From Balneolaceae bacterium (GTDB lineage: Bacteria > Bacteroidota > Rhodothermia > Balneolales > Balneolaceae), in contig JAEPQE010000001.1 of assembly GCA_017640665.1 (NCBI GenBank), positions 1,381,262-1,445,261 on the forward strand: a DNA stretch of 64,000 nucleotides, written 5' to 3'. The notes beneath the pieces are model-generated. The model saw only the letters and a list, made by a program, of their open reading frames with translations, was not told the DNA's origin and did not search any database. Made by a program: the position numbers and the translations under genes. The first letter of the stretch is position 1. Each line of letters begins with the position of its first letter. This document shows positions 4,774 through 64,000 of the stretch, piece by piece.

Positions 4774-5907
4774 ATGGCAGAAAATTATAAACACATGCAG
4801 TTGTTGCTTCACGCGATTGAAGGAATCAATCGTACTATGGAGCTTAAGTCTCTGTTGCTAAAATGTATGAACTCTGCTTGCCAGGTGATGGAAGCCGAGG
4901 CCAGCTCACTAATGCTGATTGATGAAGTCACAGGAGAACTTCATGTGAGTATCCCAACAGGACCGATTAAAGATAAAATTAAAGGGATGAGCATTCCCAG
5001 GGATAAAGGGGTTGCCGGATGGGTGCTTAAATCCAAAGAACCTTATTTCACAAATGAGCTTAAAGATTCTGATATTTTCTGGGGAGAACTCAGCTCAGAG
5101 TTTAGCAGCCAAAGCATTATGTGTGTGCCTCTTCTCAATTCAAAAAAAGAAGCCATTGGGGTGCTTCAGGTATTGAATAAGTTGAATGGAAAGGAATTTA
5201 AGAAAGAAGAGATTCCGGTATTCGAAACATTGGCAGGTCATGTAGCGCTTTCTATTGAAAAGGTGAAGGAAGTAGATGACCTCAAAAAAAAGATCAAAGA
5301 AAAAGAGTCGAAGCTAAAAGAAGTTCACCAGGGTTTGAAAAGCAATCTTGCAGCGATAAATGCACTTATACAATTAGAGGTGCCAACTATAGATGATGAA
5401 CTTGCTCAGTTTGTACTAAAAGCTACCGGTTCAAGAATAGAGGCGATTTCCAACGCACATCATATACTTTATAATCAGGATGAGTTCGAATATCTGGACT
5501 TAGGACTTTATTTAGGCCGTTTGACATCGATCGTTTCTGAAATTTTTGAGCAGGAGGGAAAAGAAATAAGCCTTCTTTTAGATATGGATAAAATTGCTCT
5601 GAAAGCGAGTGTGGCGCTAACGGTAGGTTTAATTGTAAACGAAGTACTTGTAAATATGTACAAGGATGCTTTTGTGATCGAATCTTATGGAAAAATTACG
5701 CTGGCTGTAAAAAAAGATGAACAGAACTGTGTAGCCATCAGCATTTCTGATGATGGAGGCGGACTTAAATCAAATCTGGATGGTAGTGAGGAAGATTCCC
5801 TCGGGTCAATAATTATAAAAACACTGGCCAGTAAATTGGATGCCACGCTCACCCAGCGCACTAACGATGCAGGTGGGACTACTTTTACGATACTGTTTTA
5901 TAACTGA
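4774..5907 (+). CDS. GAF-domain sensor histidine kinase (HisKA_2 type)
   Basis: A 377-residue soluble protein. Residues about 10-170 form a GAF domain (ASSLMLIDEVTGELHVSIP, GVAGWVLKSKEPYF, MCVPLLNSKKEAIGVLQVLN). A short coiled coil (about 172-190, rich in Lys/Glu) leads to KEVHQGLKSNLAAINALI, which aligns with the phosphoacceptor block EIHHRVKNNLQ of HisKA_2 kinases and keeps the His. The C-terminal ATPase part has an N-box-like NEVLVNMYKDAF and a G1 box ISDDGGGL. No membrane segment or signal peptide is present, so it probably senses a cytoplasmic cue through GAF. There is no response regulator beside it. It stands between the acnA terminator and an SLC13 transporter, 46 bp upstream of the latter, so it may influence that gene, which is inference. 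Confidence 0.88.
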   Translation: MAENYKHMQLLLHAIEGINRTMELKSLLLKCMNSACQVMEAEASSLMLIDEVTGELHVSIPTGPIKDKIKGMSIPRDKGVAGWVLKSKEPYFTNELKDSDIFWGELSSEFSSQSIMCVPLLNSKKEAIGVLQVLNKLNGKEFKKEEIPVFETLAGHVALSIEKVKEVDDLKKKIKEKESKLKEVHQGLKSNLAAINALIQLEVPTIDDELAQFVLKATGSRIEAISNAHHILYNQDEFEYLDLGLYLGRLTSIVSEIFEQEGKEISLLLDMDKIALKASVALTVGLIVNEVLVNMYKDAFVIESYGKITLAVKKDEQNCVAISISDDGGGLKSNLDGSEEDSLGSIIIKTLASKLDATLTQRTNDAGGTTFTILFYN

Positions 5908-49531: not shown

Positions 49532-50938
49532 GTGAAAGCTTTAAAAACGATCTTATTCTTAGCATTATTTATATGGTTTATTAACTGCAAGTCTGCCAAT
49601 ACTAATGTTTCAGAAAAAAATATGATGTGGTTGACTACAGCAAATCAAGAAGTGCTATTTGAAAAGATTGAGGGAGGTATTTCTCCTGCTAGTACAGGCG
49701 CTGACGACCCGTTAATAGAAGTAAATACGAGTATTACCTATCAGGAAATAGACGGTTATGGTTTTTCATTAACCGGCGGTAGTGCTATCCACATTAATGG
49801 AATGGAAGACTCTGAAAGGGAGAAACTATTAAAAGAACTCTTTGGAACCGCAGATGGGGAAATAGGAATAAGTTATTTGCGGGTCAGCATTGGTGCTTCT
49901 GATCTCGATCCTGAACCGTTTTCCTATAATGATTTACCGCAAGGTGAGACAGATATGGATTTGAATAATTTCAGTATAGAGCGAGATCAGAATAATTTAA
50001 TTCCGGTGCTCAAAGAGATCCTTGCAATTAATCCTAAATTGAAAATCATGGGTTCATCTTGGTCTCCTCCTGTATGGATGAAGACAAATAACTCAACTAT
50101 TGGCGGTAGATTAAGAACAGAATATTATGATGTATATGCTAACTATTTTGTTAAGTATATCAAAGCAATGGAAGAAGAAGGAATCTCAATTGAGGCAATA
50201 ACCGTACAAAATGAGCCGGAGCACGGGGGGAATAATCCTAGTATGGTAATGACTAGCGAAGAACAAAAAGTATTCATTAAAAACCACTTAGGGCCAAAAT
50301 TTGCGGAAGAAAATATCGACACAAAAATAATTATCTGGGACCATAACGCTGATAACCCTGATTACCCGATTAGCATTCTAAACGATCCTGATGCAAATAA
50401 GTACATTAACGGTTCCGCGTTTCATTTATATGCGGGAGAAATCACTTCGTTAAGTGAAGTACATAATGCACACCCTGATAAAAATATCTACTTTACAGAG
50501 CAATGGATTGGTGCGCCGGGAAATTTTAGTCAAGATTTGGCATGGCATACCAGAAACCTGATTGTGGGGGCTACAAGAAATTGGAGTAAAACCATATTAC
50601 AATGGAATCTCGCTTCTGATGCCAATCAAGAACCACATACGGTTGGGGGTTGCGACAGTTGTTTAGGTGGAGTTACTATAGAAGGCAATTTAGTGACAAG
50701 AAACCCTGGATATTATATAATCGCTCATGCCTCAAAATTTGTAAGACCTGGTTCAATAAGGGTAGATTCTTCTTACCCCGAAGACTTACCAAATGTGGCC
50801 TTCACTACCCCTGAAGATGAACTAGTATTAATTATATTAAACGATTCATCAAATAATAAAAAAGTTAATCTTTCTGCTGACGGTGAAACGTATTCGGTCA
50901 CTCTTCCGAAAGGTGCTGTTACAACACTCGTTCTATAA
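49532..50938 (+). CDS. GH30-family glycoside hydrolase, lipoprotein (GTG start)
   Basis: A 468-residue enzyme. The leader MKALKTILFLALFIWFINCKS ends in a lipobox with Cys, so it is lipid-anchored. The (beta/alpha)8 body has the GH30 features GYGFSLTGGSAIHI, SSWSPPVWMKTNN, acid/base Glu228 in TVQNEPEHGG and nucleophile Glu323 in YFTEQWIG. A beta side domain ends the protein. Family members are retaining glucosylceramidases, beta-1,6-glucanases or related; beta-1,6-glucanase fits best, by inference. The GTG is the only start that yields the signal peptide. It is 133 bp after rpoC, past the terminator, and one base ahead of the next start. Confidence 0.9.
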   Translation: MKALKTILFLALFIWFINCKSANTNVSEKNMMWLTTANQEVLFEKIEGGISPASTGADDPLIEVNTSITYQEIDGYGFSLTGGSAIHINGMEDSEREKLLKELFGTADGEIGISYLRVSIGASDLDPEPFSYNDLPQGETDMDLNNFSIERDQNNLIPVLKEILAINPKLKIMGSSWSPPVWMKTNNSTIGGRLRTEYYDVYANYFVKYIKAMEEEGISIEAITVQNEPEHGGNNPSMVMTSEEQKVFIKNHLGPKFAEENIDTKIIIWDHNADNPDYPISILNDPDANKYINGSAFHLYAGEITSLSEVHNAHPDKNIYFTEQWIGAPGNFSQDLAWHTRNLIVGATRNWSKTILQWNLASDANQEPHTVGGCDSCLGGVTIEGNLVTRNPGYYIIAHASKFVRPGSIRVDSSYPEDLPNVAFTTPEDELVLIILNDSSNNKKVNLSADGETYSVTLPKGAVTTLVL

Positions 50939-50939
50939 T

Positions 50940-52748
50940 ATGGAAGCTTCAGCCAATAAGAGCATGTCATTAACATCTTCTAAAAAAATTATCTTTTGGG
51001 GAATAACAATTTTATTTCCCTTTCTTTTTCTCTTACTAGTAGAGGTAGGACTTAGAATAGGTGGTTATAATGAAGAAGCTCAGGAATTATTTATTGAAGC
51101 TCCAAGTGATTCTAATTTTTTGGTTACAAACTCTTCATTTATTGGAAGGTACTTTCCCGCATTCACACCTACTGTAGCGCCCAATCCTTTTAGGAAAGAA
51201 AAGAAACCCAATACCTTTAGAGTATTTGTGTTCGGCGGGTCGTCAGCTCAGGGTTTTCCTTATAATTTCTACTATAGCTTTGCTGAACAATTAGAACAAA
51301 AGTTGCTACTTAATACAGAAGGTTTAACTGTTGAAGTGATCAATCTAGGGATGACAGCAGTGAACAGTTACGTGATTAGGGATTTATCATATAGAACATT
51401 GCCATATCAGCCAGATGCAATATTAATCTATGCCGGTCACAATGAATACTATGGTTCATTTGGGGTCGGGTCAACTCAGTTTGGATTAATGAATAGCAGA
51501 AGACTGAAGCTTTGTATTTTAGGTCTTAAAAATCTAAGGCTTTATCAATATTTAGAGAGTTTATTAAAGCAGAGCCATTCCCCAACTAATGACAGAAGGA
51601 CTTTGATGGCTAAGGTGGTAAAAGAATCAGATATTGCGCTCAAAGGGTCAATTTTCAGGGACGGGGTCGAACAGTTCGAACAAAATATGAATGACGTTCT
51701 GGATTTATATGAAAAAGAGAAAGTCCCTGTTTATTTAAGTACAATTGCTTCAAACCTAAAGGATCAAGCTCCTTTAAGTGATAACCGGGAGGCTATACAA
51801 AAGTTTGAGGAGGCTCAGAGCTTTTATTCGAATAGTGAATATTCTTTGGCATTAGCCAGTTTTATTGAAGCAAAAGAATTAGACGGCATCAGGTTTCGAG
51901 CTCCTGAAAGAGTAAATGAAGCAATTAGGGATTTCGCAAAAACAAGTAACGTTGAGTTGGTGGAAGTTGAGTCTTTGCTCAGGGAAAAGTCGGACAGTAA
52001 AATTGAAGATGCTTCATTGTTTATTGATCACCTGCATCCGAACTCTAAAGGTCATAAACTAATTGCGAGTAAATTTTTTGATCATTTATTGGAATTAGAA
52101 ATAATCAAAGATCATTATCGCCCCACTGATTTTAAGGTGCCTCAGTCAGTAAGTAAATTTGAGGAAACCTATTCAAATACCTCGATTTCTCGTCTTCTTA
52201 TGGGATATCCATTTCAAAAAAACCTGTCACAGGAGGAAGAACTTAGGCGCTTCGATAAAATCTATACCACCTATTTAAAATCATCTTACATAGATTCAAT
52301 TGCTGCTTCAGCGGCTAGAAATCGTCATGTAGTAGCCGAAGCCTTAACGAAAGTCATAAATGAAGGGAGAAATAGAAATGATACACTTACGGTTGTATCT
52401 CATTATTATGAACTCCTAAAGTGGCAATTAAATTCAACAGAGCTAATTGATAAAGGTATTGAGTATACCGTAAACAATAGATCAATTGATAATTATCTTA
52501 TAAACATTCTCTCTCAGATTCTAAATGAAGGTCAATATGACCCCAGATATATGGATGTCCTTTCAGCAGTTTATATCATTAACGGAGAATTAGATAAAGC
52601 AAAATATTGGCTGGATGAAAGTGAGCGTATGGGTTCAAATACACCAATGTTATATTATAATTTGGCACGCTATCATATTTTAAAAGGTGATACTGTAAAA
52701 GCTAGCGGGTATTATAATAGATTTAGACAGTCTCAGCAGTCCAATTAA
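50940..52748 (+). CDS. SGNH/GDSL-type hydrolase with helical C-terminal repeats
   Basis: A 602-residue protein from the ATG at 50940. The frame is open further upstream, inside the GH30 gene, but that part is not expected to be used. A membrane helix lies at about 17-37. The hydrolase part has block I FGGSSAQGFP with Ser101, block III AGHNEYYG with Asn168, and block V DHLHPNSKGH (Asp and His). A helical C-terminal half (about 400-602) with TPR-like pairs (IINGELDKAKYWLDESERM, YYNLARYHILKGDTVKASGYY) is unusual. It may remove acyl groups from glycans or transfer them at the envelope; substrate unknown. It is one base after the GH30 stop (TAAT-ATG), so coupled. Confidence 0.85.
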   Translation: MEASANKSMSLTSSKKIIFWGITILFPFLFLLLVEVGLRIGGYNEEAQELFIEAPSDSNFLVTNSSFIGRYFPAFTPTVAPNPFRKEKKPNTFRVFVFGGSSAQGFPYNFYYSFAEQLEQKLLLNTEGLTVEVINLGMTAVNSYVIRDLSYRTLPYQPDAILIYAGHNEYYGSFGVGSTQFGLMNSRRLKLCILGLKNLRLYQYLESLLKQSHSPTNDRRTLMAKVVKESDIALKGSIFRDGVEQFEQNMNDVLDLYEKEKVPVYLSTIASNLKDQAPLSDNREAIQKFEEAQSFYSNSEYSLALASFIEAKELDGIRFRAPERVNEAIRDFAKTSNVELVEVESLLREKSDSKIEDASLFIDHLHPNSKGHKLIASKFFDHLLELEIIKDHYRPTDFKVPQSVSKFEETYSNTSISRLLMGYPFQKNLSQEEELRRFDKIYTTYLKSSYIDSIAASAARNRHVVAEALTKVINEGRNRNDTLTVVSHYYELLKWQLNSTELIDKGIEYTVNNRSIDNYLINILSQILNEGQYDPRYMDVLSAVYIINGELDKAKYWLDESERMGSNTPMLYYNLARYHILKGDTVKASGYYNRFRQSQQSN

Positions 52749-52829
52749 TTGGGATACGTACTATATATCTGGGAACTTGATATGTGAGTAAATTTCATCT
52801 CATATCAATCCTTAGTATATATAAGAATA

Positions 52830-53843
52830 TTAAGTTGAATTTCTTATCGACAGGGAGACCGGAATAACACTTAAAATTCCGCTATGAGAGGAGGAATTCT
52901 CTGAAACCATTTTTTCGGTAAGAATATTAAGCGTTTTTTTTGCCAGCACTTCATAGTCTGTATGTACCGAAGTAATAGCTGGGTGCAAATAATTACAGAT
53001 CGGTAAATCATCGTAGCCGGCTACTGCTACATCATCTGGTACTTTAAGTCCATTCATTGCTGCTTGCTCGAGAAAACCTAAAGCCATGTAATCGTTACTG
53101 GAAAAAATTGCTCGAGGTTTTTTTCTAAGTGAATTATATGACTCAAACGCCTTTTTCCCTGATTCGAAACTATAATCACCTACAAATTTCCAGATCTGGT
53201 TCATGTCATCTTTTTGATTTATAAAATCTAGGAACCCGTTTTTTCTTAGTAAAGCTTCGTTCTTGTTCATTGGTCCGGTTATTATTCCAACATCCCTATA
53301 TGTTCTGTCATAAAAATGCTTAGCAACAATATATCCACCTCGATAAGAGTCAAAAGTAACGGTGTCAAGAATAGGATTAAACAAAGGGGCTACAGAAAGT
53401 ATGGTGAAATCTTTAGGTGCTGACCTAAGCAGCTCTTCATAGTCTTTGTCCTGGAATAAAGGGAGAAATAAAATTGCTGCGTCTATTGAGTTATAGCTCA
53501 ACTGAGTAATAAAATCGGATAGGTTGTTTTTTTGGGGATCAAAAGAATACAAAGAAATAGTAACATTAAAATCTAATGACGCCTCATTAAAGCCGCAGAA
53601 AAAGGTGGAGTAAAATTCATCTGGATAAAAGTTGGTGATTAATGCGACCTGTATTCTCTTCCTGTAATTATATTTACCGTTTAGTAATCTGGTATTAATT
53701 GGATAATTAATTTCTTGAGCGACTTTAATTGTTAATTCAACATTTTCTGGGCTTGTCTTAGATTCTCCGCGCAAAATCCTCGAAACAGTTGAAACTGAGA
53801 GGCCTGTCTTCTCTGCTATGTCATGTAGTGTTGCTTTAATCAT
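52830..53843 (-). CDS. LacI-family transcriptional regulator
   Basis: A 337-residue regulator. The helix-turn-helix is TLHDIAEKTGLSVSTVSRILRG (here residues about 5-26) with hinge helix following. The ligand domain is of the sugar-binding PBP-I type with SYRGGYIVAKHFYDRTYRD and ALGFLEQAAMNGLKVPDDVAVAGYDD, ending in SVIPVSLSIRNS. The gene is convergent with the SGNH gene and divergent from the CBM protein gene, across the 325-bp gap with AGCGCT sites. It probably controls the adjacent glycan genes in response to an oligosaccharide. Confidence 0.94.
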   Translation of the reverse strand: MIKATLHDIAEKTGLSVSTVSRILRGESKTSPENVELTIKVAQEINYPINTRLLNGKYNYRKRIQVALITNFYPDEFYSTFFCGFNEASLDFNVTISLYSFDPQKNNLSDFITQLSYNSIDAAILFLPLFQDKDYEELLRSAPKDFTILSVAPLFNPILDTVTFDSYRGGYIVAKHFYDRTYRDVGIITGPMNKNEALLRKNGFLDFINQKDDMNQIWKFVGDYSFESGKKAFESYNSLRKKPRAIFSSNDYMALGFLEQAAMNGLKVPDDVAVAGYDDLPICNYLHPAITSVHTDYEVLAKKTLNILTEKMVSENSSSHSGILSVIPVSLSIRNST

Positions 53844-53906
53844 ATAGAATAATAACCAAATTCATGATAAAATTTCTAAAAAATAGGAGAAAAGTTGCCC
53901 AATTCA

Positions 53907-53968
53907 GGAAGCGCTTTCAGGTATCTTTATTAGATAGGTTAACTATTTTAGTACTGGTAGCGCTTTTC
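53907..53968. promoter_or_regulatory. Two LacI-type operator candidates
   Basis: GGAAGCGCTTTC (53907-53918) and GGTAGCGCTTTTC (53956-53968) share the AGCGCTT core, whose central CG is typical of LacI-family operators. Their centres are 49 bp apart. They lie next to the lacI-like gene in the 325-bp gap. Binding by that regulator is inference. Confidence 0.55.
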
Positions 53969-53997
53969 TACTTAAAAAAATAATCCATAGCATGTCC

Positions 53998-54037
53998 GTG
54001 AGAAAATTTCTCACAAAAGCTGAAAATTTTAGCTTTT
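53998..54037 (+). promoter_or_regulatory. Two adjacent AT-rich dyads in the control region
   Basis: A perfect 8-bp inverted repeat GTGAGAAAATTTCTCAC (53998-54014) is followed at once by AAAAGCT / AGCTTTT arms (54015-54037) around AAAATTTT, then TTATT. The second looks like a weak terminator. Both lie about 130-170 bp before the CBM gene. They may be operators or leader attenuators. Confidence 0.45.
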
Positions 54038-54168
54038 TATTGTTGTTTCTTTGGAAGGGTTTCTATAAAATGGGTATTAATGGTAATTCAGATTGGATTT
54101 GTATTAAATCAGCATTTTCATAACGTTAAAAGACCATTAATAAATTTTTAATAAACTTAGGATAAAAC

Positions 54169-56580
54169 ATGATTAAAGCTACTATAAAACGGTTAGCATC
54201 ATTTTCTTTAATGATTTTGCTGGCAGTTATTTCTACTAGTACAGCTCAGGCTCAAAATACTTTAATGGGCCCGGAACTTATCGACCAGGGTGATTTTGCT
54301 GGAGATACGTTGGCAGCAAGCTGGAATGTTGAAGGCGGAGCTAATGGTATGGCAGCTGTAGTTAACGGTGAGCTTGCTATTACTGATCTTGCTGAAGTCG
54401 CGAACATTTATGACTTTCAGGTAAATCAAAATTTAAGTGCAGAAGATATTGCAGAATTAGCAAAAGGTGGTACTTTCGAGGTTTCATTTGATGCCCGTTC
54501 TGAGCTTTCTGAAAAAACATTTCACGTGTTTCTGGGTGAAGTTGGAGGAAGTTGGGCACGTTACTGGCAGCCGGGTGCTGACGGAGACGTTACCGTTACT
54601 AATGAGACACAAAGATATACTTTAACTACCAATGTTGAGCAAGCATGGGATGCCATGAGATTAGGATTTGAAGTAGCTGGCGACACATCAGATCTTTTCC
54701 TTGATAATATTAGTCTAAGAAGAGTTGAAGATAATATCCTAATTGACGGTGAAGTTGTAATCGGTGAAGATTCACTAAGTACTGCTTGGACTCAGCTTAC
54801 ATCTCCAGCCTCAGCAACATTTTCTGTTGCTAATGGTGCGGTAAAGATTTCAGAAATATCCGGAATTGTAAATTCTTACGATGTTCAGTTCATTCAGATT
54901 TTGAATGAAGAACAGGTAGACTCAATCTATGCTGGTCCATACGAATTTATTTTTGATGCTAGAACCTCAGCTAGCGAGAAGCAAATACAAGCTTATTTTG
55001 GTAATAATGGTACAGATGGTGACTGGACAAACTTTGCACCAACTGTTATGCTTGATGATACCATGAGAAGATATAAATTGAATGTAGATGCTTCTCAAAA
55101 CTGGACTGGAATGAAGGTTGGTTTCGAAGTTTCAGCTGATACATCTTCTGTATGGTTTGATAACATCATACTTCGAAGAGTTCGTGAAGTTGCCCCTGAA
55201 GCTCCAAACTTTACTCTGGCAACCACTGATGGAGTGGTTACAATAACTGCTGACGGATTAGAAGGAGGTTTTGAATACGAAGTGTATTTTGCAGATTCAG
55301 CCTTCACGTCAACTGATGGTGCTACCTCTGTTGGTACTTTTCTTGCAAGTGAGGGATTAACATTTCAGCACTCAACGGATGCTCCTCACCCAAGTTTAGC
55401 TACTGATTTTACAGCACACTATGGTTTAGTTGCAAAAACAGAAAAAGGTTCTGCAAGTGAAGTAACTGTTAGCTCGATTGAAACAGGAATGACCGCAGCT
55501 GAGAACTACATTGTTGAGCTTTCAGGAACTGCGGCAGACGCGGTATTTGATGCAATTGATGCCGGGACAGTACCGGAAGCGTCTGTTCTAGCAGGCTTTT
55601 TCCCTGATGGGTATAAGCCATTTGAAATCAGTGAAAGTAGCGGTCGTAAAATCATAGAAAATGGAAGTGGTGGAGATGACGACGCCGATATTTCCGGGAA
55701 AATGTGGATAGGTTTCGATGCCGCTTCATCTTATTTGTTTATCTATGCAGAAATAACTGATGATGTGTTAGTTCCAACTCCAAAAACAACTACCGGTGGT
55801 GGTGGATGGCAATATGATAGCTGGGAAATGGGTATAGGTGCTTACTCTCCAGAATCATTTATTAATGGATCAGACCATCAAAGCTTTGAAGGTGCGGATG
55901 AGCCTGATTTTCAGCTTAGAGCTGGTATAAGGGCAGATACAGCTGATTACATGCATGGTAACGACGGAGGAACATCGTTTGATGTAGATAATATCAACAA
56001 TTCAGCAACAATAGGTGATGATAGTCCAACTGGGATGTATAGATTACTCTCTATTGTAAATACTAATGCATTTCAAACATATAATGCTGAAGCAGCTGCC
56101 TTCGTTTTTCCAACAGGTACGGGAGTTAGCACTATTCCGTTTACCTGGACTATAAATGACGCTGATGCGGGTACCCGAGATACTCAGGTTGGATGGTCTA
56201 CCAAAGGTGGGCAGGATGACTGGTGGAACACACCAGCACGCTGGGAAACAGTAGCATTAGTTGGAGCCGATGCGATTCCAACTTCTAACGAAGATGAAGG
56301 ACAAGATAGAGTTAGTGAGTTCTCGCTTGACCAAAACTATCCGAATCCATTCAACCCTACTACTAATATCTCATTTAAGTTAGGTACATCGAGTAACGTA
56401 ACTCTAGAAGTTTATAACCTGCTAGGTCAAAAAGTTGCTACAATACTACAGAACCAAAAGCTAAGTGCTGGTTCTCATAGTCAGAAGTTTGATGCTTCAA
56501 GATTGGCTTCAGGATTGTATGTGTACCGTATTAGTACAGAGTCATTTACTCAGTCTCGAAAAATGATGCTTATCAAATAA
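54169..56580 (+). CDS. Secreted carbohydrate-binding protein with Por (T9SS) sorting tail
   Basis: An 803-residue exported protein. A signal peptide occupies residues 1-29 (ending QAQ). Two tandem repeats of about 150 residues (about 30-190 and 195-340) share WNVEGG-like beta-sandwich ends and the closing DNISLRRVE / DNIILRRVR, a CBM4/9-type fold in appearance. A fibronectin-like segment (about 345-440) follows, then a CBM9-like domain (WIGFDAASSYLFIYAEITDD, YDSWEMGIGAY). The end (about 720-803) is a type A Por sorting domain starting SLDQNYPNPFNPTTN and ending in YRISTESFTQSRKMMLIK. No catalytic residues are recognised, so it is probably a surface glycan-binding protein. It is the first gene of the TonB operon. 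Confidence 0.85.
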   Translation: MIKATIKRLASFSLMILLAVISTSTAQAQNTLMGPELIDQGDFAGDTLAASWNVEGGANGMAAVVNGELAITDLAEVANIYDFQVNQNLSAEDIAELAKGGTFEVSFDARSELSEKTFHVFLGEVGGSWARYWQPGADGDVTVTNETQRYTLTTNVEQAWDAMRLGFEVAGDTSDLFLDNISLRRVEDNILIDGEVVIGEDSLSTAWTQLTSPASATFSVANGAVKISEISGIVNSYDVQFIQILNEEQVDSIYAGPYEFIFDARTSASEKQIQAYFGNNGTDGDWTNFAPTVMLDDTMRRYKLNVDASQNWTGMKVGFEVSADTSSVWFDNIILRRVREVAPEAPNFTLATTDGVVTITADGLEGGFEYEVYFADSAFTSTDGATSVGTFLASEGLTFQHSTDAPHPSLATDFTAHYGLVAKTEKGSASEVTVSSIETGMTAAENYIVELSGTAADAVFDAIDAGTVPEASVLAGFFPDGYKPFEISESSGRKIIENGSGGDDDADISGKMWIGFDAASSYLFIYAEITDDVLVPTPKTTTGGGGWQYDSWEMGIGAYSPESFINGSDHQSFEGADEPDFQLRAGIRADTADYMHGNDGGTSFDVDNINNSATIGDDSPTGMYRLLSIVNTNAFQTYNAEAAAFVFPTGTGVSTIPFTWTINDADAGTRDTQVGWSTKGGQDDWWNTPARWETVALVGADAIPTSNEDEGQDRVSEFSLDQNYPNPFNPTTNISFKLGTSSNVTLEVYNLLGQKVATILQNQKLSAGSHSQKFDASRLASGLYVYRISTESFTQSRKMMLIK

Positions 56581-56607
56581 GTAAAGACTGATTTTTTATT
56601 AAATAAT

Positions 56608-56648
56608 TTCGGGCACAGCATTTATGCTGTGCCCGAATTAAATTTTTT
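56608..56648 (+). terminator. Terminator or attenuator between the CBM and TonB genes
   Basis: A perfect 13-bp stem (TTCGGGCACAGCA with TGCTGTGCCCGAA, 56608-56637) with a 4-nt loop, followed by TTAAATTTTTT. It ends 4 bp before the TonB receptor ATG. It would uncouple expression of the abundant surface protein from the receptor. Confidence 0.8.
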
Positions 56649-56652
56649 AGCC

Positions 56653-59406
56653 ATGATTAAACTATTCTTATCAAAGTATGCCCTCCTTTCACTATTTGTC
56701 ATCCTTTTCACTAGTTCAACCGTATTTGCTCAATCAAAAGGTAAGATAAGTGGGATAGTTGAAGATGAATCAGGCGAGCCATTAATTGGTGTGCAAGTTC
56801 TAATCGAAGGAACAACACGAGGTGTATTAACAGATTTGGATGGTAACTACTCCATAATAAATCTGGAGGCAGGTACTTATGTAATAGTGTTCAGATATAT
56901 TGGGTTCGCTACTACCAGAGTTGAAGAAGTTGAGGTACGTCTGGATCGTACTACTGAAATAGATGTCGTATTAAGAGAAGAAGTAATTGAAGGACAGGAA
57001 ATTGTAGTTACTGCAGAACGTCCTATTGTTGAAAAAGATCGAACTACCACTACAGCGTATGTAAGTTCGGAACAGTTAGAAGAATTGCCAATTGTAAGTT
57101 TGAATGAAGCAGTAAATCAGCAGGCAGGGGTTGTAGACGGTCACTTTAGAGGAGGTAGAATTGGTGAGGTGGCATACCTGGTAAATGGTGTGCCTATTAA
57201 TAACGCATTCAATAATAATGCGGCCTTTGAGGTGGAGCAAAATATGGTTTCCAGCCTTGAAGTAATCAGTGGAGTTTTTAATGCAGAGTATGGTCAGGCC
57301 TTGAGTGGTGTTGTAAATATTGTAACAAAAGGGGTGGCCAGTGAGTGGACAGCAAGCTTTTTAGGATATGTAGGTACTGTCGTTAGCGACAGAGAACTCG
57401 AAATGGTAAACAGAACTACTGGACCAGGAGCTTTTTTAAGTGCTGATGATTTTGTGAACGAAAGAATTACTTATACAGAGGCTTATGAGACATTTGGCAG
57501 TAGAGATGTTCAATTCTCTGTAGGTGGTCCGATTATTAAAGATAAACTAGGTATCCAGGCTACCTTGAGATATGTTTCTGATCCTGGTACTCTAATAGGA
57601 CGAGATTTATTCAGCCCTGACGATGATCAGAATGAGACTATTACTTCTGAGGAAAGAGAGGACTGGATTATTGAGTCAACAGGGAGTGGTGAACTAGTTG
57701 GTTTAAATTTCAACGACAGATATTCTTTAAATACTTCGCTGGTTTACGAGCTCAACAGTAGATTTAAAATCGATTATAATCTTTTTCTTCAACAGAATGA
57801 CGGAAGAAATTATGATCACAGTTATAAGTATACGCCGGACGGTATTAATCAGTATTATAACTTTTCACAAAACCATATTCTTGGTTTAAGATACTCAATA
57901 GGGCAAAATTCATTTGCTAACTTCTCGTACAGTTATCTTTACGATAAGGGAGAAAGCTACCTATACAACGATGCTACAGCTACGGATTTAGATCAGAGAT
58001 ATGTTTCCAACAACTTTGCGAACCAGCAAGGTCAGTTTGCGTTTAACATGGGCGGTAATTATCTGGGGTCAGGACAGGGAATTACCAAAACACATACTAT
58101 TGTTACTGATTTTACGTCGCAGATTAATAATATCGTTTTATTTAAAACAGGACTTTCCGCACGTTTTCATAGCTTAGATAACGAAAGCTTTGGAATTACT
58201 AAGATTGGAAACTTTCCGGCTATTCGCGCTCCAAATGTGTACTCCAATAATTCTTTAGAAGTCACACCTTATGAGGCGGCGGGATATTCACAGGTTAAAT
58301 TAGAATTTGAGAATCTGATTGTAAACGCAGGCTTACGTTTCGATTATTTCCAACCCGATTTTGTTGTAGTGCGTGATATTTCGCAAGGGGAAAGTGAAGT
58401 AATTGCTGATGTAAGTACACCAGCTGTAGGAGATTCAATTTCAAATCGTATTGATGCTGACGATTCTTTTCAGCTAAGTCCTCGTTTAGGAATTGCATTT
58501 CCAATCTCAGAACGAGGTGTAATGCGGTTTTCTGCCGGTTTATTCTTCCAAACTCCTCAATTGAATTTACTTTATACCAATAATGAATTCGAAGCTAATC
58601 CGGCGAATGCCAGCATTACGTACGGAAATGCATCTCTAAAACCTGAAAGAACCCTTTCATTTGAGGTTGGTCTTCAGCAGGGATTGTCAGAGACATTAGG
58701 AATGGACCTGACCTTATACTCTAAAGATATACGTAACTTATCCGGGCTTGAATTTTTTCGGAATTTTAACGGACAATATACAGCTCAGCTCGTAAATCTT
58801 GATTATGGTACGGTGAAAGGATTTACATTATCACTCTATCAACGCGGAGCTGGACCTGTGAGCTGGACATTAGATTATACATTGCAGTTTGCTAATGGAT
58901 CGGCATCAGATCCACAAGAAACTCTACAAAGAGCGCTGAATGGTCAAGATCCTGTAATAAGAATCAACAGATTAAACTGGGATAGAAGAAATGTGTTAAA
59001 TAACACCATCACTTGGAATAGCCCTTATGGTTTAACAGTATCATTTATTAACTCCTTGCAATCAGGTAGTCCATATACGTCACAAAGAGATTTCAGACAA
59101 TCCAACATACCTAATAATGAAGATACTCCTGCATGGTTCAACTCAAATGCAAGAGTGTTCTATAAACCACCCGTATTAAAGCAGGATATTGAATTGTTCG
59201 TTCAGGTTAACAACGTATTCGATTCTACTCCCGAGTTTGGTGTATTCAGTGATACCGGACTCGCTACTGAATCTACAGAGCTAAATAGAAGGATTGAAGG
59301 TGGAGCAGAACCAGGGGGATTGAATACACTTACTGAGTGGTTCTTAAACCCTCAGAGTGTTGGAGCTCCAAGAACAGTAAGGGTTGGAATAAGCTTAAAA
59401 TTTTAA
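56653..59406 (+). CDS. SusC-like TonB-dependent receptor
   Basis: A 917-residue outer-membrane receptor from the ATG at 56653. A GTG upstream at 56629 would place the start inside the hairpin. A signal peptide ends VFAQS. Residues about 28-110 are a carboxypeptidase-regulatory-like beta domain (GKISGIVEDESGEPLIGVQVLI, LDGNYSIINLEAGTYVIVFRYIGF) as in SusC. The plug follows (SSEQLEELPIVSLNEAVNQQAGVV, LVNGVPINNAF, SGVFNAEYGQALSGVVNIVTKG), then a 22-strand-type barrel ending in RVGISLKF. It imports large ligands with TonB energy. There is no SusD gene next to it, which is unusual for a SusC-like receptor. Confidence 0.93.
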   Translation: MIKLFLSKYALLSLFVILFTSSTVFAQSKGKISGIVEDESGEPLIGVQVLIEGTTRGVLTDLDGNYSIINLEAGTYVIVFRYIGFATTRVEEVEVRLDRTTEIDVVLREEVIEGQEIVVTAERPIVEKDRTTTTAYVSSEQLEELPIVSLNEAVNQQAGVVDGHFRGGRIGEVAYLVNGVPINNAFNNNAAFEVEQNMVSSLEVISGVFNAEYGQALSGVVNIVTKGVASEWTASFLGYVGTVVSDRELEMVNRTTGPGAFLSADDFVNERITYTEAYETFGSRDVQFSVGGPIIKDKLGIQATLRYVSDPGTLIGRDLFSPDDDQNETITSEEREDWIIESTGSGELVGLNFNDRYSLNTSLVYELNSRFKIDYNLFLQQNDGRNYDHSYKYTPDGINQYYNFSQNHILGLRYSIGQNSFANFSYSYLYDKGESYLYNDATATDLDQRYVSNNFANQQGQFAFNMGGNYLGSGQGITKTHTIVTDFTSQINNIVLFKTGLSARFHSLDNESFGITKIGNFPAIRAPNVYSNNSLEVTPYEAAGYSQVKLEFENLIVNAGLRFDYFQPDFVVVRDISQGESEVIADVSTPAVGDSISNRIDADDSFQLSPRLGIAFPISERGVMRFSAGLFFQTPQLNLLYTNNEFEANPANASITYGNASLKPERTLSFEVGLQQGLSETLGMDLTLYSKDIRNLSGLEFFRNFNGQYTAQLVNLDYGTVKGFTLSLYQRGAGPVSWTLDYTLQFANGSASDPQETLQRALNGQDPVIRINRLNWDRRNVLNNTITWNSPYGLTVSFINSLQSGSPYTSQRDFRQSNIPNNEDTPAWFNSNARVFYKPPVLKQDIELFVQVNNVFDSTPEFGVFSDTGLATESTELNRRIEGGAEPGGLNTLTEWFLNPQSVGAPRTVRVGISLKF

Positions 59407-59412
59407 AAAAGA

Positions 59413-62400
59413 ATGATTAGTACAAGGAATATTTATATGCGGAATATCACGAAAATTTTTGTTCTTACAGCTTCTCTGTTCTTCATGGATACTGTGATGG
59501 CACAATCCATTCCTGATTCGTTGAATGGGGTAATCTACCGGGGGAGCGAAAACTCTATAGCAAGAGGGGTTCTTGATGGTAACCTTATACAAACAAACTT
59601 TAGAAATCATGGAGAACTTTCCAGATGGATGGATATTCCCTGGGGAGTTTGGCCGAGAGACGTTGGAGGTAGACATATTGATGGAGTAGGTGTTCTTGTA
59701 GCTGGTAAGGTAGTTGGTAACAGAACTACTCCTGACGTAGCCCCATACTTTACAGCGACTACTGATACTATACTTAATCCACTTAGTATCCATTATAGAC
59801 AAGCCGGATTGAGACAAAGTCCCAGAACGGGAGATATCTATGGCTGGCTTCCTCTACCCGGATTTAACAATCGAAGCAGAACAAATGATTTAGGACAAGC
59901 AGAACCTGTTCCTGCCTTATCTAACGATCCAAGCTCATGGCCAGACTTTTGGCCGGATAGATGTGAAGAAGAAGATCCTTGTTGGCCAGGCACATGGAAT
60001 GGTAGAGATGGAAGATTTGCAAGTGCAGACTTAGAGTCTTTCTATGTGATGGATGATTTCTCAGATTTAGAATATGCATTTGGTATCGAAGGAACCGGTC
60101 CTCACAGTGAAGATGGAGTCTATCATCCAAGCGATATGGATTCAACGATAGGTGGTCTTGCAATGCAAATGCAGGTAAGAATTTTCCAATGGGCAAATAT
60201 TTTAGCTGAGGACACAGCTTTTCTTATTTATCGAATTACAAATAAAGGGGATTACAAACAGGATAGCTTGTATTTCGCTCAAATTGTCGATTATGGATTG
60301 GGTTTTGAAGAAGCAGATGATAATGCCAACTATGATCCTCTTTTGGATGTAGTATATGGTTGGGATAGAGACGGTATTGGTGAACCAACTTTTGCAGGTC
60401 AGGGCACTTATGACTTAGGGTATACAGGTTTTGCTTTCCTTGAGTCTCCTGCTAATGATTTGAATGGTATTGATGATGACGTTGATGGAATCACTGATGA
60501 GTCAAGATTTGATAACAATTATATCGTATTAAGTTCTCAGGCAGAAATCGATGCCTATGTAGATGCCAATTATGACAGGGATGCATTTGAAGAGTTTAAT
60601 GGCGAAACAGTAGAAGAACGCCCTGCTTACCGGGCTGGCATTTGGTATACAACAGATGAAAACCTTGACTGGGTAGGCTTTGATGATGCAAATAACAATG
60701 GCATCCGGGATGAAGGAGAAGTGCTTAATAACGACGTAGGTAGGGATGGGCTGAGTAACTTCGATTTTGGTTACCCGGGACCAGATGAAGGTGAAGGAGA
60801 TGGAATACCTACTGATGGAGAGCCAAACTATAATCAAATTGATGTTGATGAATCAGATCAGATAGGTCTTACAGGTTTTGACTTGGGTACACGGCCGGAG
60901 TATGAATCAGGAGATAACCTGAGAGATGATACTTGGTTATGGGGTAAAATTGAGGAGCATTTATTTGATGATCCAAATCAACCACCACTGGTTAGTCCTT
61001 TAGCGGATGAAGAACCATTTGTATTATTTGTATCAGGTGCAGTAGAACTTGCCAATGAAGGATCAGCAGAAAAATCTACTGATTTTTTCTCTACAGCCTG
61101 GATATTTGGTGATGATGAAGAAGATTTTTTCAAGAATAGAAGAGTTGTTCAAAATATTTATAATGCAGATTACAATTTTGCACAACCGCCGTTAACCCCG
61201 GAACTTACAGCAGTTGCTGCAGATAACAGAGTGATACTATCTTGGGATGATGTAGCTTTACAAAGTTATGACAGGTTTCTTCAGGATTTTGATTTTGAAG
61301 GATTTAGATTGTATAGATCTTCAAATAATATTTTTAATGATATCAGAACTATTTCTGATGTAAATGGTACGCCAAAGTTTTATGAGCCTCTTGCTCAATG
61401 GGATTTAAATAACGATATAAGTGGGCCTGTACCTGTATTAGAAGGAGAAGCAATTTACGATCTTGGATCTAATTCCGGATTAGCATTTTCATACATAGAT
61501 GATGATGTTACAAATGGTAAGACATACTACTACGCCTTGGTTTCTTATGATAGAGGTATCTTAGGCGAAGGGGGTGCACCTGGTATAGATCCTCAGGAAA
61601 GCCCATTCAGAGTCACTGTAAATCAACAAGGACTGGTTTCAGGTACTTCTAAAAATACAGCTGCCGTTGTTCCAACAACACCGCCGGCTGGGTTTATTGC
61701 AGGGGGTTCATCTTCTGATTTAAGTTCTGTAACATTAGGGACAGCAACAGGTTCAGCCAAGGTAAATATCATAAATGAAGCTTTACTAAAAGATGAAAAT
61801 ATTTATGAAATTCAGTTTACAGATAGTGCGGCACCTCCTGAATTTGGAGATGCCCGGTATACTGAAAATTATCGATTAGTGCTTAAAACCCCTTCTGGTG
61901 ATAGTACGTTAATTGAAGAAACTTCTTTTTCAACTACAACCAAAGTAGTTGATGGTTTTACTGTGGAAATGACAAACTCTTCACCTGCTGATCTGGATGA
62001 GTTGAGGACGGGATATAGGTCAAATGCAGGAACGAACAATGAGATGTACGCTCAAAACCCGAACAATTTAGACGGTGTTTCTACAGATTGGGAATTATTT
62101 ATTCTTCCAAGAATAGGTGGGGTCGAAGATAATTTTGAGAAAACTGATAGCGATTTCGAACTTCTTTTTGTTGATCCAGCGGATTCCTTGTATACCCCGC
62201 CACGTTTATTTGGGTCGGACTTTGAACGGGCAGATATGCCTGTATTTGCAAGGAATGTAACGAAAGGGACTCCTGCGGAACTCTTTTTACTCGATACCGA
62301 TGAGTCGGAATCATTAACTGCCGGAGATCAACTGGTACTAGCTGAAGAAGTCAATACTAGTGTATATGTATATAGATATACCATTACGATAGATCCGGAT

Positions 62401-62838
62401 GGTAACAACCCTCCAGACCCGGGTGAAAAAATTTATGTTTCTACTACAAAACAGTTCGGAAGTGGAGATACATTCCAATTTAGTGTACAGAGTGGCTCAG
62501 TGAGTGATTCATTAGCAAGGTCGGAGATGGATGATATATTCGTGGCTCCGGATCCTTACATAGGTACTGCTTCATGGGAAAGACGGTCCAACTCAATTGG
62601 TAGAGGAGAAAGGAAAATTGAATTTTTCAACCTTCCGAGAGTTTGTACAATCAGGATTTTCAATATCAGAGGCGAGTTAGTAAGATCCATTGAACATGAA
62701 GGAGACTTCAATGATGGTTCGGCTTCATGGGATCTACTCACAGATAACAATGAAGATGTTGCTTACGGTGTTTACTTCTATCACGTAGAAGCGAAGGGCA
62801 TAGGAGAATTCACAGGAAAATTTGCAATCGTTAAATAA
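59413..62838 (+). CDS. Large secreted protein with acidic repeats and a FlgD-like tail
   Basis: A 1141-residue exported protein; start ATG at 59413, with a second candidate ATG at 59437 preceded by AAGGA. A signal peptide ends VMAQS. The body has many Asp/Asn-rich loops that look like calcium sites (DLNGIDDDVDGITDES, DDANNNGIRDEGE, DEGEGDGIPTDGEPN). A fibronectin III-like region lies at about 600-710 (RVILSWDDVAL, YYYALVSYDRG). The last about 80 residues form a FlgD/Por-type sorting end (IRIFNIRGELVRSIEHEGDF, VAYGVYFYHVEAK). I recognise no catalytic family. It starts 6 bp after the receptor and overlaps the next gene region, so it is the receptor's likely partner. Confidence 0.85.
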   Translation: MISTRNIYMRNITKIFVLTASLFFMDTVMAQSIPDSLNGVIYRGSENSIARGVLDGNLIQTNFRNHGELSRWMDIPWGVWPRDVGGRHIDGVGVLVAGKVVGNRTTPDVAPYFTATTDTILNPLSIHYRQAGLRQSPRTGDIYGWLPLPGFNNRSRTNDLGQAEPVPALSNDPSSWPDFWPDRCEEEDPCWPGTWNGRDGRFASADLESFYVMDDFSDLEYAFGIEGTGPHSEDGVYHPSDMDSTIGGLAMQMQVRIFQWANILAEDTAFLIYRITNKGDYKQDSLYFAQIVDYGLGFEEADDNANYDPLLDVVYGWDRDGIGEPTFAGQGTYDLGYTGFAFLESPANDLNGIDDDVDGITDESRFDNNYIVLSSQAEIDAYVDANYDRDAFEEFNGETVEERPAYRAGIWYTTDENLDWVGFDDANNNGIRDEGEVLNNDVGRDGLSNFDFGYPGPDEGEGDGIPTDGEPNYNQIDVDESDQIGLTGFDLGTRPEYESGDNLRDDTWLWGKIEEHLFDDPNQPPLVSPLADEEPFVLFVSGAVELANEGSAEKSTDFFSTAWIFGDDEEDFFKNRRVVQNIYNADYNFAQPPLTPELTAVAADNRVILSWDDVALQSYDRFLQDFDFEGFRLYRSSNNIFNDIRTISDVNGTPKFYEPLAQWDLNNDISGPVPVLEGEAIYDLGSNSGLAFSYIDDDVTNGKTYYYALVSYDRGILGEGGAPGIDPQESPFRVTVNQQGLVSGTSKNTAAVVPTTPPAGFIAGGSSSDLSSVTLGTATGSAKVNIINEALLKDENIYEIQFTDSAAPPEFGDARYTENYRLVLKTPSGDSTLIEETSFSTTTKVVDGFTVEMTNSSPADLDELRTGYRSNAGTNNEMYAQNPNNLDGVSTDWELFILPRIGGVEDNFEKTDSDFELLFVDPADSLYTPPRLFGSDFERADMPVFARNVTKGTPAELFLLDTDESESLTAGDQLVLAEEVNTSVYVYRYTITIDPDGNNPPDPGEKIYVSTTKQFGSGDTFQFSVQSGSVSDSLARSEMDDIFVAPDPYIGTASWERRSNSIGRGERKIEFFNLPRVCTIRIFNIRGELVRSIEHEGDFNDGSASWDLLTDNNEDVAYGVYFYHVEAKGIGEFTGKFAIVK

Positions 62839-62845
62839 TGAGTCT

Positions 62846-63913
62846 ATGAAATTCAGCTTAAAAACAATGAAAAATACATTAACATTATTTGTCCTGATTG
62901 CATTAGTAGGTAGTGTTCAAGTTCTTGCACAAAGTAGAGTTGGAACTTCTGCAGCACCGTTTCTAACTATGGGAGTTGGAGCCAAAGGTCAGGCTTTAGG
63001 GCATGCGAATACCATAAACACATCCGGTGCCGAAGCTTTATTTTGGAATCCGGCTGCTATTTCTATTGAGAACGGTGGTGGAACTTTTGGTTCAGGATTT
63101 TTTACGGTGAATCAACTTTTTGTTGATGTAGAAGCTTATGGAGCAGGAATTGTTCTACCATTCAGTGAAGGTTCTGGTAAGAACTTTGGCTTAAGTATCA
63201 ACTATGTAGACTATGGTCGACAGAAAGTTAGAACGGTTGAACTTCAAGATGGTACTGGAGCGACCTATGGGGCTAATGATTTGAGTTTAGGAATCACTTA
63301 CGCACAGAACTTAACCGAATCCTTTCATTTTGGCGGTACCGCAAAATTTATTCAGCAGAAGATATATGATATGCATGCTGAGACATTCGCTGTTGATCTG
63401 GGATTCATTTTGAAAACTAATTACTTCAATGGACTTACTATTGGGGCTTCTATCAGTAATTTTGGTGGAAAAATGCAAATGGATGGTATTAACTCCGAGT
63501 ATTTTATCGACATTGATGGAACAAGTGAAGGGGACAACGAAAATATTTTGGGTAGGGTAAAAATGGACCAATGGGATTTGCCTCTTTCATTTAAGGTTGG
63601 GTTATCCCTGCCTGTAATTAAGCAGGAAAATCTGGAATGGCTGATTTTGTCAGAAGCTCAACAAACAAGTGATAATGATCTGAACGTTGATTCAGGTTCA
63701 GAGATAAGTTATATCTCTAATACTGTGAAATTCCATATAAGAGGTGGGTATAAAGACTTATTACTTGGAGACAGAGTAGATTCTCATATAACTTATGGAG
63801 CCGGATTTGTATTAAAAACGTCTTCTGGCCTTGCGATTGGAGTTGATTTTGCTCAGGTTCCATTTGAGTATTTAGGTCAAACCACAATTGTAGATTTAAA
63901 GTTATTCTTCTAA
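62846..63913 (+). CDS. PorV/PorQ-like outer-membrane protein
   Basis: A 355-residue outer-membrane protein from the ATG at 62846; 8 codons of earlier frame overlap the previous gene. An alternative ATG is at 62867. A signal peptide ends VLAQS. The PorV/PorQ pattern follows: RVGTSAAPFLTMGVGAKGQALG, SGAEALFWNPAAIS and a series of beta strands ending in LGQTTIVDLKLFF. PorV proteins escort type IX cargo at the cell surface. Placement after two Por-tailed genes is fitting. Confidence 0.88.
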   Translation: MKFSLKTMKNTLTLFVLIALVGSVQVLAQSRVGTSAAPFLTMGVGAKGQALGHANTINTSGAEALFWNPAAISIENGGGTFGSGFFTVNQLFVDVEAYGAGIVLPFSEGSGKNFGLSINYVDYGRQKVRTVELQDGTGATYGANDLSLGITYAQNLTESFHFGGTAKFIQQKIYDMHAETFAVDLGFILKTNYFNGLTIGASISNFGGKMQMDGINSEYFIDIDGTSEGDNENILGRVKMDQWDLPLSFKVGLSLPVIKQENLEWLILSEAQQTSDNDLNVDSGSEISYISNTVKFHIRGGYKDLLLGDRVDSHITYGAGFVLKTSSGLAIGVDFAQVPFEYLGQTTIVDLKLFF

Positions 63914-63937
63914 ATGTTTTTTAAACATAGTTTCTTT

Positions 63938-63966
63938 AAAGGCTGCTTTAGTTTTAAGCGGCCTTT
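63938..63966 (+). terminator. Terminator-like hairpin after the PorV-like gene
   Basis: AAAGGC-T-GCTT pairs with AAGC-G-GCCTTT (one U-G pair) around a 7-nt loop, followed by a T-rich stretch. It probably closes the TonB/Por operon. Confidence 0.6.
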
Positions 63967-64000
63967 CTTATTTATTCTGGTTTCATGCTTTATTCTAGTT

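Follow-up and report, generated by a model that had tools for sequence, protein, structure and literature searches.

The susCD gene pair serves as a marker for finding polysaccharide loci and for calling which bacteria eat which glycan. The locus described here, from the 3.8 Mb genome (nine contigs) of a Balneolaceae bacterium, was initially annotated as a glycan acquisition locus with a SusC-type receptor and no SusD-type lipoprotein. It raises the question whether this receptor belongs to a SusC system at all, and which proteins work with it. By the window we mean the whole stretch of 64,000 nt that was analysed (C1:1381262-1445261).

Gene content and the receptor

All seven genes named in the initial annotation were found in place (Table 1). 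A Pfam/NCBIfam search backs the assignments of the GH30 lipoprotein, the GDSL/SGNH hydrolase, the LacI regulator, the Por tail of the 803-aa protein, the TonB receptor and the PorV/PorQ family of the barrel. The core of the locus is formed by the receptor, the 1141-aa protein (the large protein in the following) and the PorV-like barrel, to which we refer as the module. The closest named model to the GH30 lipoprotein is that of the endo-1,6-beta-glucanase BT3312 (NF053856, 396 bits, under its cut-off of 700). The hydrolase is retained next to the module mostly in close relatives. The listed ORF of the barrel overlaps the previous gene, and translation probably begins at an ATG located a few codons further on. 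The operon extends beyond the edge of the window, since the gene of a PPIase lipoprotein lies directly 3' of the barrel gene and ends outside.

Table 1. Features of the locus (window positions)
Feature	Position	Strand	Evidence
GH30 lipoprotein, probable endo-1,6-beta-glucanase, substrate enzyme of the locus	49532..50938	+	PF02055, 162 bits
SGNH/GDSL hydrolase with TPR-like tail	50883..52748	+	PF13472, 39.7 bits
LacI-family regulator, divergent from the module	52830..53843	-	PF00356, PF13377
Candidate LacI operator AGCGCTTTCA	53910..53919	+	Alignment of relatives' intergenic regions
Second candidate LacI operator AGCGCTTTTC	53959..53968	+	Alignment of relatives' intergenic regions
T9SS-secreted surface glycan-binding protein, 803 aa; two CBM4-like domains, CBM9-like domain, type A sorting tail	54169..56580	+	Por_Secre_tail; AlphaFold2 model
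TonB-dependent receptor (CarboxypepD_reg, plug, barrel), not SusC	56629..59406	+	Pfam/NCBIfam; genome-wide SusC scores
1141-aa protein, predicted at the surface	59413..62838	+	AlphaFold2 model; fold search; tail profile; synteny
PorV-family barrel dedicated to the module	62822..63913	+	NF033709, 140 bits (cut-off 90); PDB match to PorV 6h3i
Parvulin PPIase lipoprotein gene, 583 aa, first 87 bases in the window	63914..64000	+	L005:1175-2926

The N-terminal beta domain and the plug of the receptor had been described as SusC-type. This holds for residues 39-178, to which the likeness to SusC is restricted, but it does not hold for the protein as a whole, which scored 77 bits against the SusC/RagA model TIGR04056 with its curated cut-off of 368. 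The receptor contains a plug and a beta-barrel domain (PF07715 and PF00593, both above cut-off) and is thus a TonB-dependent receptor. Genome-wide, TIGR04056 recognised three genes at 805-840 bits, and the next best gene reached 105. The SusD genes in this genome are exactly three (Pfam models PF07980 and PF14322), each adjoining one of the three true SusC genes. In line with the initial annotation, none was found in the neighbourhood of the locus. The check for a pairing SusD elsewhere, which had been proposed there, revealed no hidden or unpaired SusD with either model in the genome, and since all three SusD genes pair with the three true SusC genes, no SusD is free for the receptor.

The curated model and the genome content together rule out the receptor as a SusC, and because it fails this model, a SusC that lost its SusD would be the wrong history. 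A regular SusC with its SusD gene at another site is suggested by the resemblance of the N-terminal domain and the plug, but we regard this as extremely improbable in view of the 77-79 bits scored here against 805-840 for the true SusC proteins, the pairing of all three SusD genes, and the distribution of SusD among other carriers of the module. Among 35 carriers tested outside the class of the window, just one (G188) had a PF14322 match, and one further weak match was obtained with PF07980, while SusD was present, in up to 43 copies, in 20 of 40 genomes from the phylum of the window in which the large protein had no match. The module is independent of SusD, and most carriers outside the class are without any SusD. 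For Melioribacter roseus, one SusCDE operon was published (PMC3534657). The sole fetched module locus near a SusD gene was L165 of Gracilimonas mengyeensis; there, the SusD gene is on the opposite strand next to another LacI gene, and two systems meet in one place.

A three-gene unit across several phyla

We searched 296 genomes of the phylum for the large protein and found matches in 142 of them, many with several copies; the weakest matches are partial. The neighbourhoods of 60 matches and then of 80 more from named contigs were fetched. Carriers belong to Balneolota, Rhodothermota, Ignavibacteriota, Fidelibacterota (Marinimicrobia) and Calditrichota, and include bins labelled Chlorobiota, Stahlbacteria and Caldisericaceae, although the taxon labels of metagenome bins can be wrong.

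For 119 large-protein genes, enough flanking sequence was available on both sides. According to ORF calling, the receptor gene was directly upstream and the barrel gene directly downstream on the same strand at 111 of these loci. After rescue by tblastn in six frames, this exact order was found at 116 loci, and the three genes were together at all 119. Conservation of gene order in related genomes, a test put forward in the initial annotation, is thus borne out for the three-gene core. Five of the eight exceptions were spurious ORFs which disappeared with tblastn. ORF calling does not account for the other three, which are real deviations: L079 has an extra ORF of 595 aa, in L113 the barrel gene precedes that of the large protein, and in L158 the PPIase gene lies between. 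The gaps between the module genes have a median of about 11 bases, and therefore the genes probably share one transcript. Frequent companions of the core are genes for a PPIase, for a surface protein carrying a secretion tail and for a LacI regulator.

The pairwise distances of the three proteins correlate with coefficients of 0.95, 0.92 and 0.89 (permutations gave about 0, and at most 0.11), a correlation which partly reflects species descent. For each of the three proteins, the two full copies in this genome are only 29-33% identical to one another, compared to mostly 50-77% between these copies and their orthologues in other genera (44-48% for the most distant one compared). Judged by these sequence comparisons, the three genes diverge as one unit and are inherited together across several phyla.

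The second full copy, L024 (C2:574-593 kb), is the closest one in the genome and comprises in a row (580-590 kb) the genes for PPIase, receptor, large protein, barrel, a protein with a T9SS tail, and LacI. A third, looser copy, L027 (C1:525-544 kb), contains a receptor adjoining a PorV-family barrel and a shorter relative of the large protein, together with a T9SS protein that has an LTD domain, a lipoprotein of 517 aa without family assignment, an NHL lipoprotein and a type I phosphodiesterase; it is perhaps a non-sugar version of the module. This genome also contains two PorV-family genes in tandem (L029, C3:542-560 kb), next to the gene of a 542-aa protein whose tail is T9SS-like. A truncated relative of the large protein (L114:7946-9964, 672 aa) corresponds to the N-terminal half only and stands without receptor or barrel; similarly short matches were detected in other genomes of the genus and family.

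Predicted folds, sugar genes and regulation

No Pfam family, the SusD domain included, matched the large protein at an E-value of 0.01, and the search for solved relatives by sequence gave no convincing hit (two matches near E 0.5, an Fn3 protein and a PorU tail). An AlphaFold2 model based on a 75-sequence alignment of the window and the fetched loci had a mean pLDDT of 87 and consists mostly of strands. In a structural search, nearly all of the 50 top matches belong to one fold class, the galactose mutarotase-like supersandwich, with Z-scores of 18-20 for stretches of about 260 residues (3.1-3.9 A) that lie mostly within residues 35-595. The matched folds are the supersandwich domains of GH15, GH94, GH116 and GH149 enzymes and aldose epimerases. 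Most of these proteins handle sugars, the exception being the periplasmic domain of YidC (Z 12.8). SusD was not among the matches listed for the models of the surface proteins, in lists whose silence on a family does not exclude it. The predicted layout comprises the mutarotase/GH94-like supersandwich (about 35-595), Fn3-like and other beta domains, and a T9SS-type C-terminal domain. A cluster of invariant or near-invariant Trp residues (W176, W180, W191, W195, W260) was noted, as well as conserved acidic loops at 354-363 and 441-482, which fit the calcium idea of the initial annotation without proving it. The tail was missed by the curated type IX models. In a profile-profile comparison, the last 110 residues matched T9SS type A tails at 94% (E 1e-7), compared to 0.2% for a mid-protein control, and a P[DN]P[YFW] motif is present in the tail of all 106 large-protein homologues.

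The 803-aa protein has a type A sorting domain (Por_Secre_tail, 49 bits; TIGR04183, 51 bits with a cut-off of 23). It had been annotated as a series of CBMs. Pfam gave no CBM4/9 match at E 0.01, but the AlphaFold2 model (pLDDT 73) argues for such domains: residues 37-186 are CBM4-like (Z 17, best to 1gui), residues 445-699 are CBM9-like (Z 19), and a second repeat (about 217-336), modelled with lower confidence, resembles another CBM4 copy. In relatives, the N-terminal modules vary, and the CBM9-like C-terminal part and the sorting tail are constant. The CBM protein is a predicted accessory surface binder. The proposal that the CBM protein and the large protein replace SusD is partly supported: no SusD is to spare, and the large protein, with a predicted fold like that of carbohydrate enzymes, may take its place, but the CBM protein is an accessory. 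The constant partners of the receptor are the large protein and the PorV-like barrel, which had been left uncounted.

The barrel exceeded the cut-off of the PorV/PorQ family (Table 1) and remained below that of the T9SS PorV equivalog (NF033710, 59 bits; cut-off 250). The core PorV is another gene, located beside PorU (L028). Along with this PorU, SprA (1488 bits) indicates that the T9SS is present in the genome.

The flanks of the module in relatives contain Pfam-confirmed genes for a GH130 mannooligosaccharide phosphorylase, a sugar-type ABC binding protein with two permeases, a sodium:solute symporter (SSS), GH3, GH16 and a glucoamylase-like protein. At least one sugar gene or LacI was found at 75 of the 83 long loci, a LacI-like gene at 46, and no recognised sugar gene at eight. 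Sugar families were matched by 306 of 963 flank ORFs and by none of 108 control ORFs taken from other parts of this genome, a comparison to be read as a measure of strength with a p-value that is too good, the families having been picked from the flanks themselves and the control being one genome. On the tree of the large protein, the loci with an ABC importer, with a symporter or with LacI only fall into few clades (nine changes, compared to a mean of 42 after shuffling); a given subfamily tends to retain a transport partner of its own. The conserved locus combines an outer-membrane importer with glycosidases and a regulator of sugar type, and by this gene content it is a polysaccharide utilisation locus in the broad sense. 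A secreted 430-aa protein without Pfam match (L077:13492-14784 and relatives) recurs in loci of the ABC type, often beside GH130.

Because a GH30 enzyme is encoded here, GH16 and GH3 in orthologous loci, and GH16 elsewhere in this genome, a beta-1,3/1,6-glucan, for example laminarin, is the probable substrate of the window copy. The surface protein of L024 has a match to the starch-binding CBM20, compared to the CBM4 and CBM9 folds in the window copy, and this fits a swapped specificity between the copies. L024 is probably an alpha-glucan system; some relatives of its branch have GH13 nearby.

In the intergenic region between LacI and the module, two AGCGCTTT words were revealed by alignment of the corresponding regions of relatives. 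We take this word to resemble the operators of LacI-family regulators. The first was aligned in four of six relatives (L060, L061, L063 and, with one mismatch, L059) and is absent in L062 and L064; the second is kept in three (L059, L060, L061). Three such words occur in the window, compared to 0.8 expected. The third, AGCGCTTTCT at 5244-5253, is far from the locus and is possibly another LacI-type site. Near-perfect 16-base palindromes were not found in the LacI intergenic region of the window. Downstream of the AGCGCTTT words, the stretch TTGTTTCTTTGGAAGGGTTTCTATAAAAT is also conserved and may be a promoter.

Proposed mechanism and known systems

We consider it likely that the locus is a polysaccharide uptake system based on a three-protein outer-membrane module which works without SusD. 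The large protein would be exported by the T9SS, aided on its way through the periplasm by the PPIase, and then taken over by the dedicated PorV-like barrel, which would hold it at the surface, as SprF does for SprB, in a complex with the receptor. This step is proposed by analogy with PorP-like barrels of the same FadL family, which hold their own secreted partners at the surface (PMC9143113). The supersandwich domain with its Trp cluster would lie over the receptor, bind oligosaccharides and pass them to the TonB-powered pore, so that the large protein would play at this receptor the role of SusD at SusC. The CBM protein would collect the polymer and set the specificity, and import across the inner membrane would rely on an ABC importer or a sodium symporter, as encoded in relatives. 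LacI would repress the operon via the AGCGCTTT sites.

That the large protein is instead an enzyme (a glycosidase, an epimerase or phosphorylase-like) and no binding lid could be argued from its closest folds, which are enzymes or their N-terminal domains, and from several invariant Asp and Glu residues. However, the matched supersandwich is a non-catalytic domain in GH94, GH15 and GH116, the model contains no catalytic alpha-barrel, no Pfam enzyme family was matched, and the protein is constant across loci serving different sugars; we regard an enzyme as unlikely. Quite unlikely is also a unit for export or surface assembly, consisting of receptor, PorV-like barrel and PPIase, with an adhesin or structural protein as its product and no import. 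In its favour, T9SS export involves PorV and PorP-like barrels, SprA has a PPIase as a binding partner (PMC9143113), and PPIase and T9SS tails belong to the operon, but the same gene runs harbour ABC or sodium sugar importers, GH130 and other inner-membrane or intracellular sugar genes. These count against an adhesin, since it would need none of them, and the fold of the large protein is that of sugar enzymes.

The module could also carry nutrients in general, with the sugar genes marking one large subclass only. The third copy in this genome, with its phosphodiesterase and NHL lipoprotein, and several distant branches without a recognised sugar gene point in this direction, but the 75 of 83 long loci mentioned above make it highly unlikely. 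Beyond the uptake system without SusD which we favour for this locus, it is tempting to speculate on a broader one. Lidded TonB-dependent glycan import may have arisen as an independent second solution, with a T9SS-secreted supersandwich lid clamped by a dedicated PorV-like barrel on a non-SusC receptor, and may serve Ignavibacteriota, Marinimicrobia and their neighbours as their main importer of polysaccharides; for this we see the chances as even.

If the lid model is true, the function of SusD would have been invented separately here. In a survey of paddy soil, susCD was scarce in the CAZyme gene clusters of Ignavibacteriales and absent from those of Kapabacteria (PMC10576277), and for this reason the route of glycan import in such bacteria was open. 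The module offers a testable answer and a new marker, and would extend the role of some of the many PorV-family paralogues found in these bacteria beyond general secretion. An earlier description of the trio of receptor, large protein and PorV-like barrel was not found in the open-access literature searched. Individual SusD-free loci have been described, among them that of Cytophaga hutchinsonii (PMC12016534), and a multi-phylum module of this kind was not found in the literature searched.

Several known systems share parts of the module. The cellulose locus chu_1276-1280 of C. hutchinsonii has in common with it a TBDT-like barrel, surface binders other than SusD, a glycosidase and the absence of SusD; by contrast, the locus is reported only in three related cellulolytic species, its binders are CBM-like of the SGBP-B type, and no PorV-family partner was found in the available part of the paper (PMC12016534). 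In the pairs of PorP/SprF-like barrels and type B CTD proteins, a FadL-family barrel likewise holds its own T9SS-secreted protein, as in SprF/SprB (PMC9143113), but here the barrel is of the PorV/PorQ family, the tail is related to type A, and both occur in combination with a TonB receptor and genes for sugar metabolism. A FadL-type barrel, BamG, is also the docking element for a surface protein in the Bacteroidota BAM, which serves barrel assembly and not nutrient uptake (PMC12578637). The N-terminal supersandwich of GH94, GH15 and GH116 and galactose mutarotase have the same predicted fold as the N-terminal half of the large protein, but in the latter we found no sequence relation to these proteins and no catalytic barrel, and the domain is joined to Fn3-like domains and a T9SS-type tail. 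Finally, the SusCD loci of Bacteroidota share with the present one a TonB-dependent transporter with an N-terminal CarboxypepD_reg domain, surface glycan binders, GH enzymes and a sugar-type regulator. In contrast to them, the receptor here fails the SusC model and has no SusD, the regulator is LacI, a PorV-like barrel and a PPIase are added, and the large binder is a predicted secreted beta protein with a T9SS-like tail instead of a helical lipoprotein.
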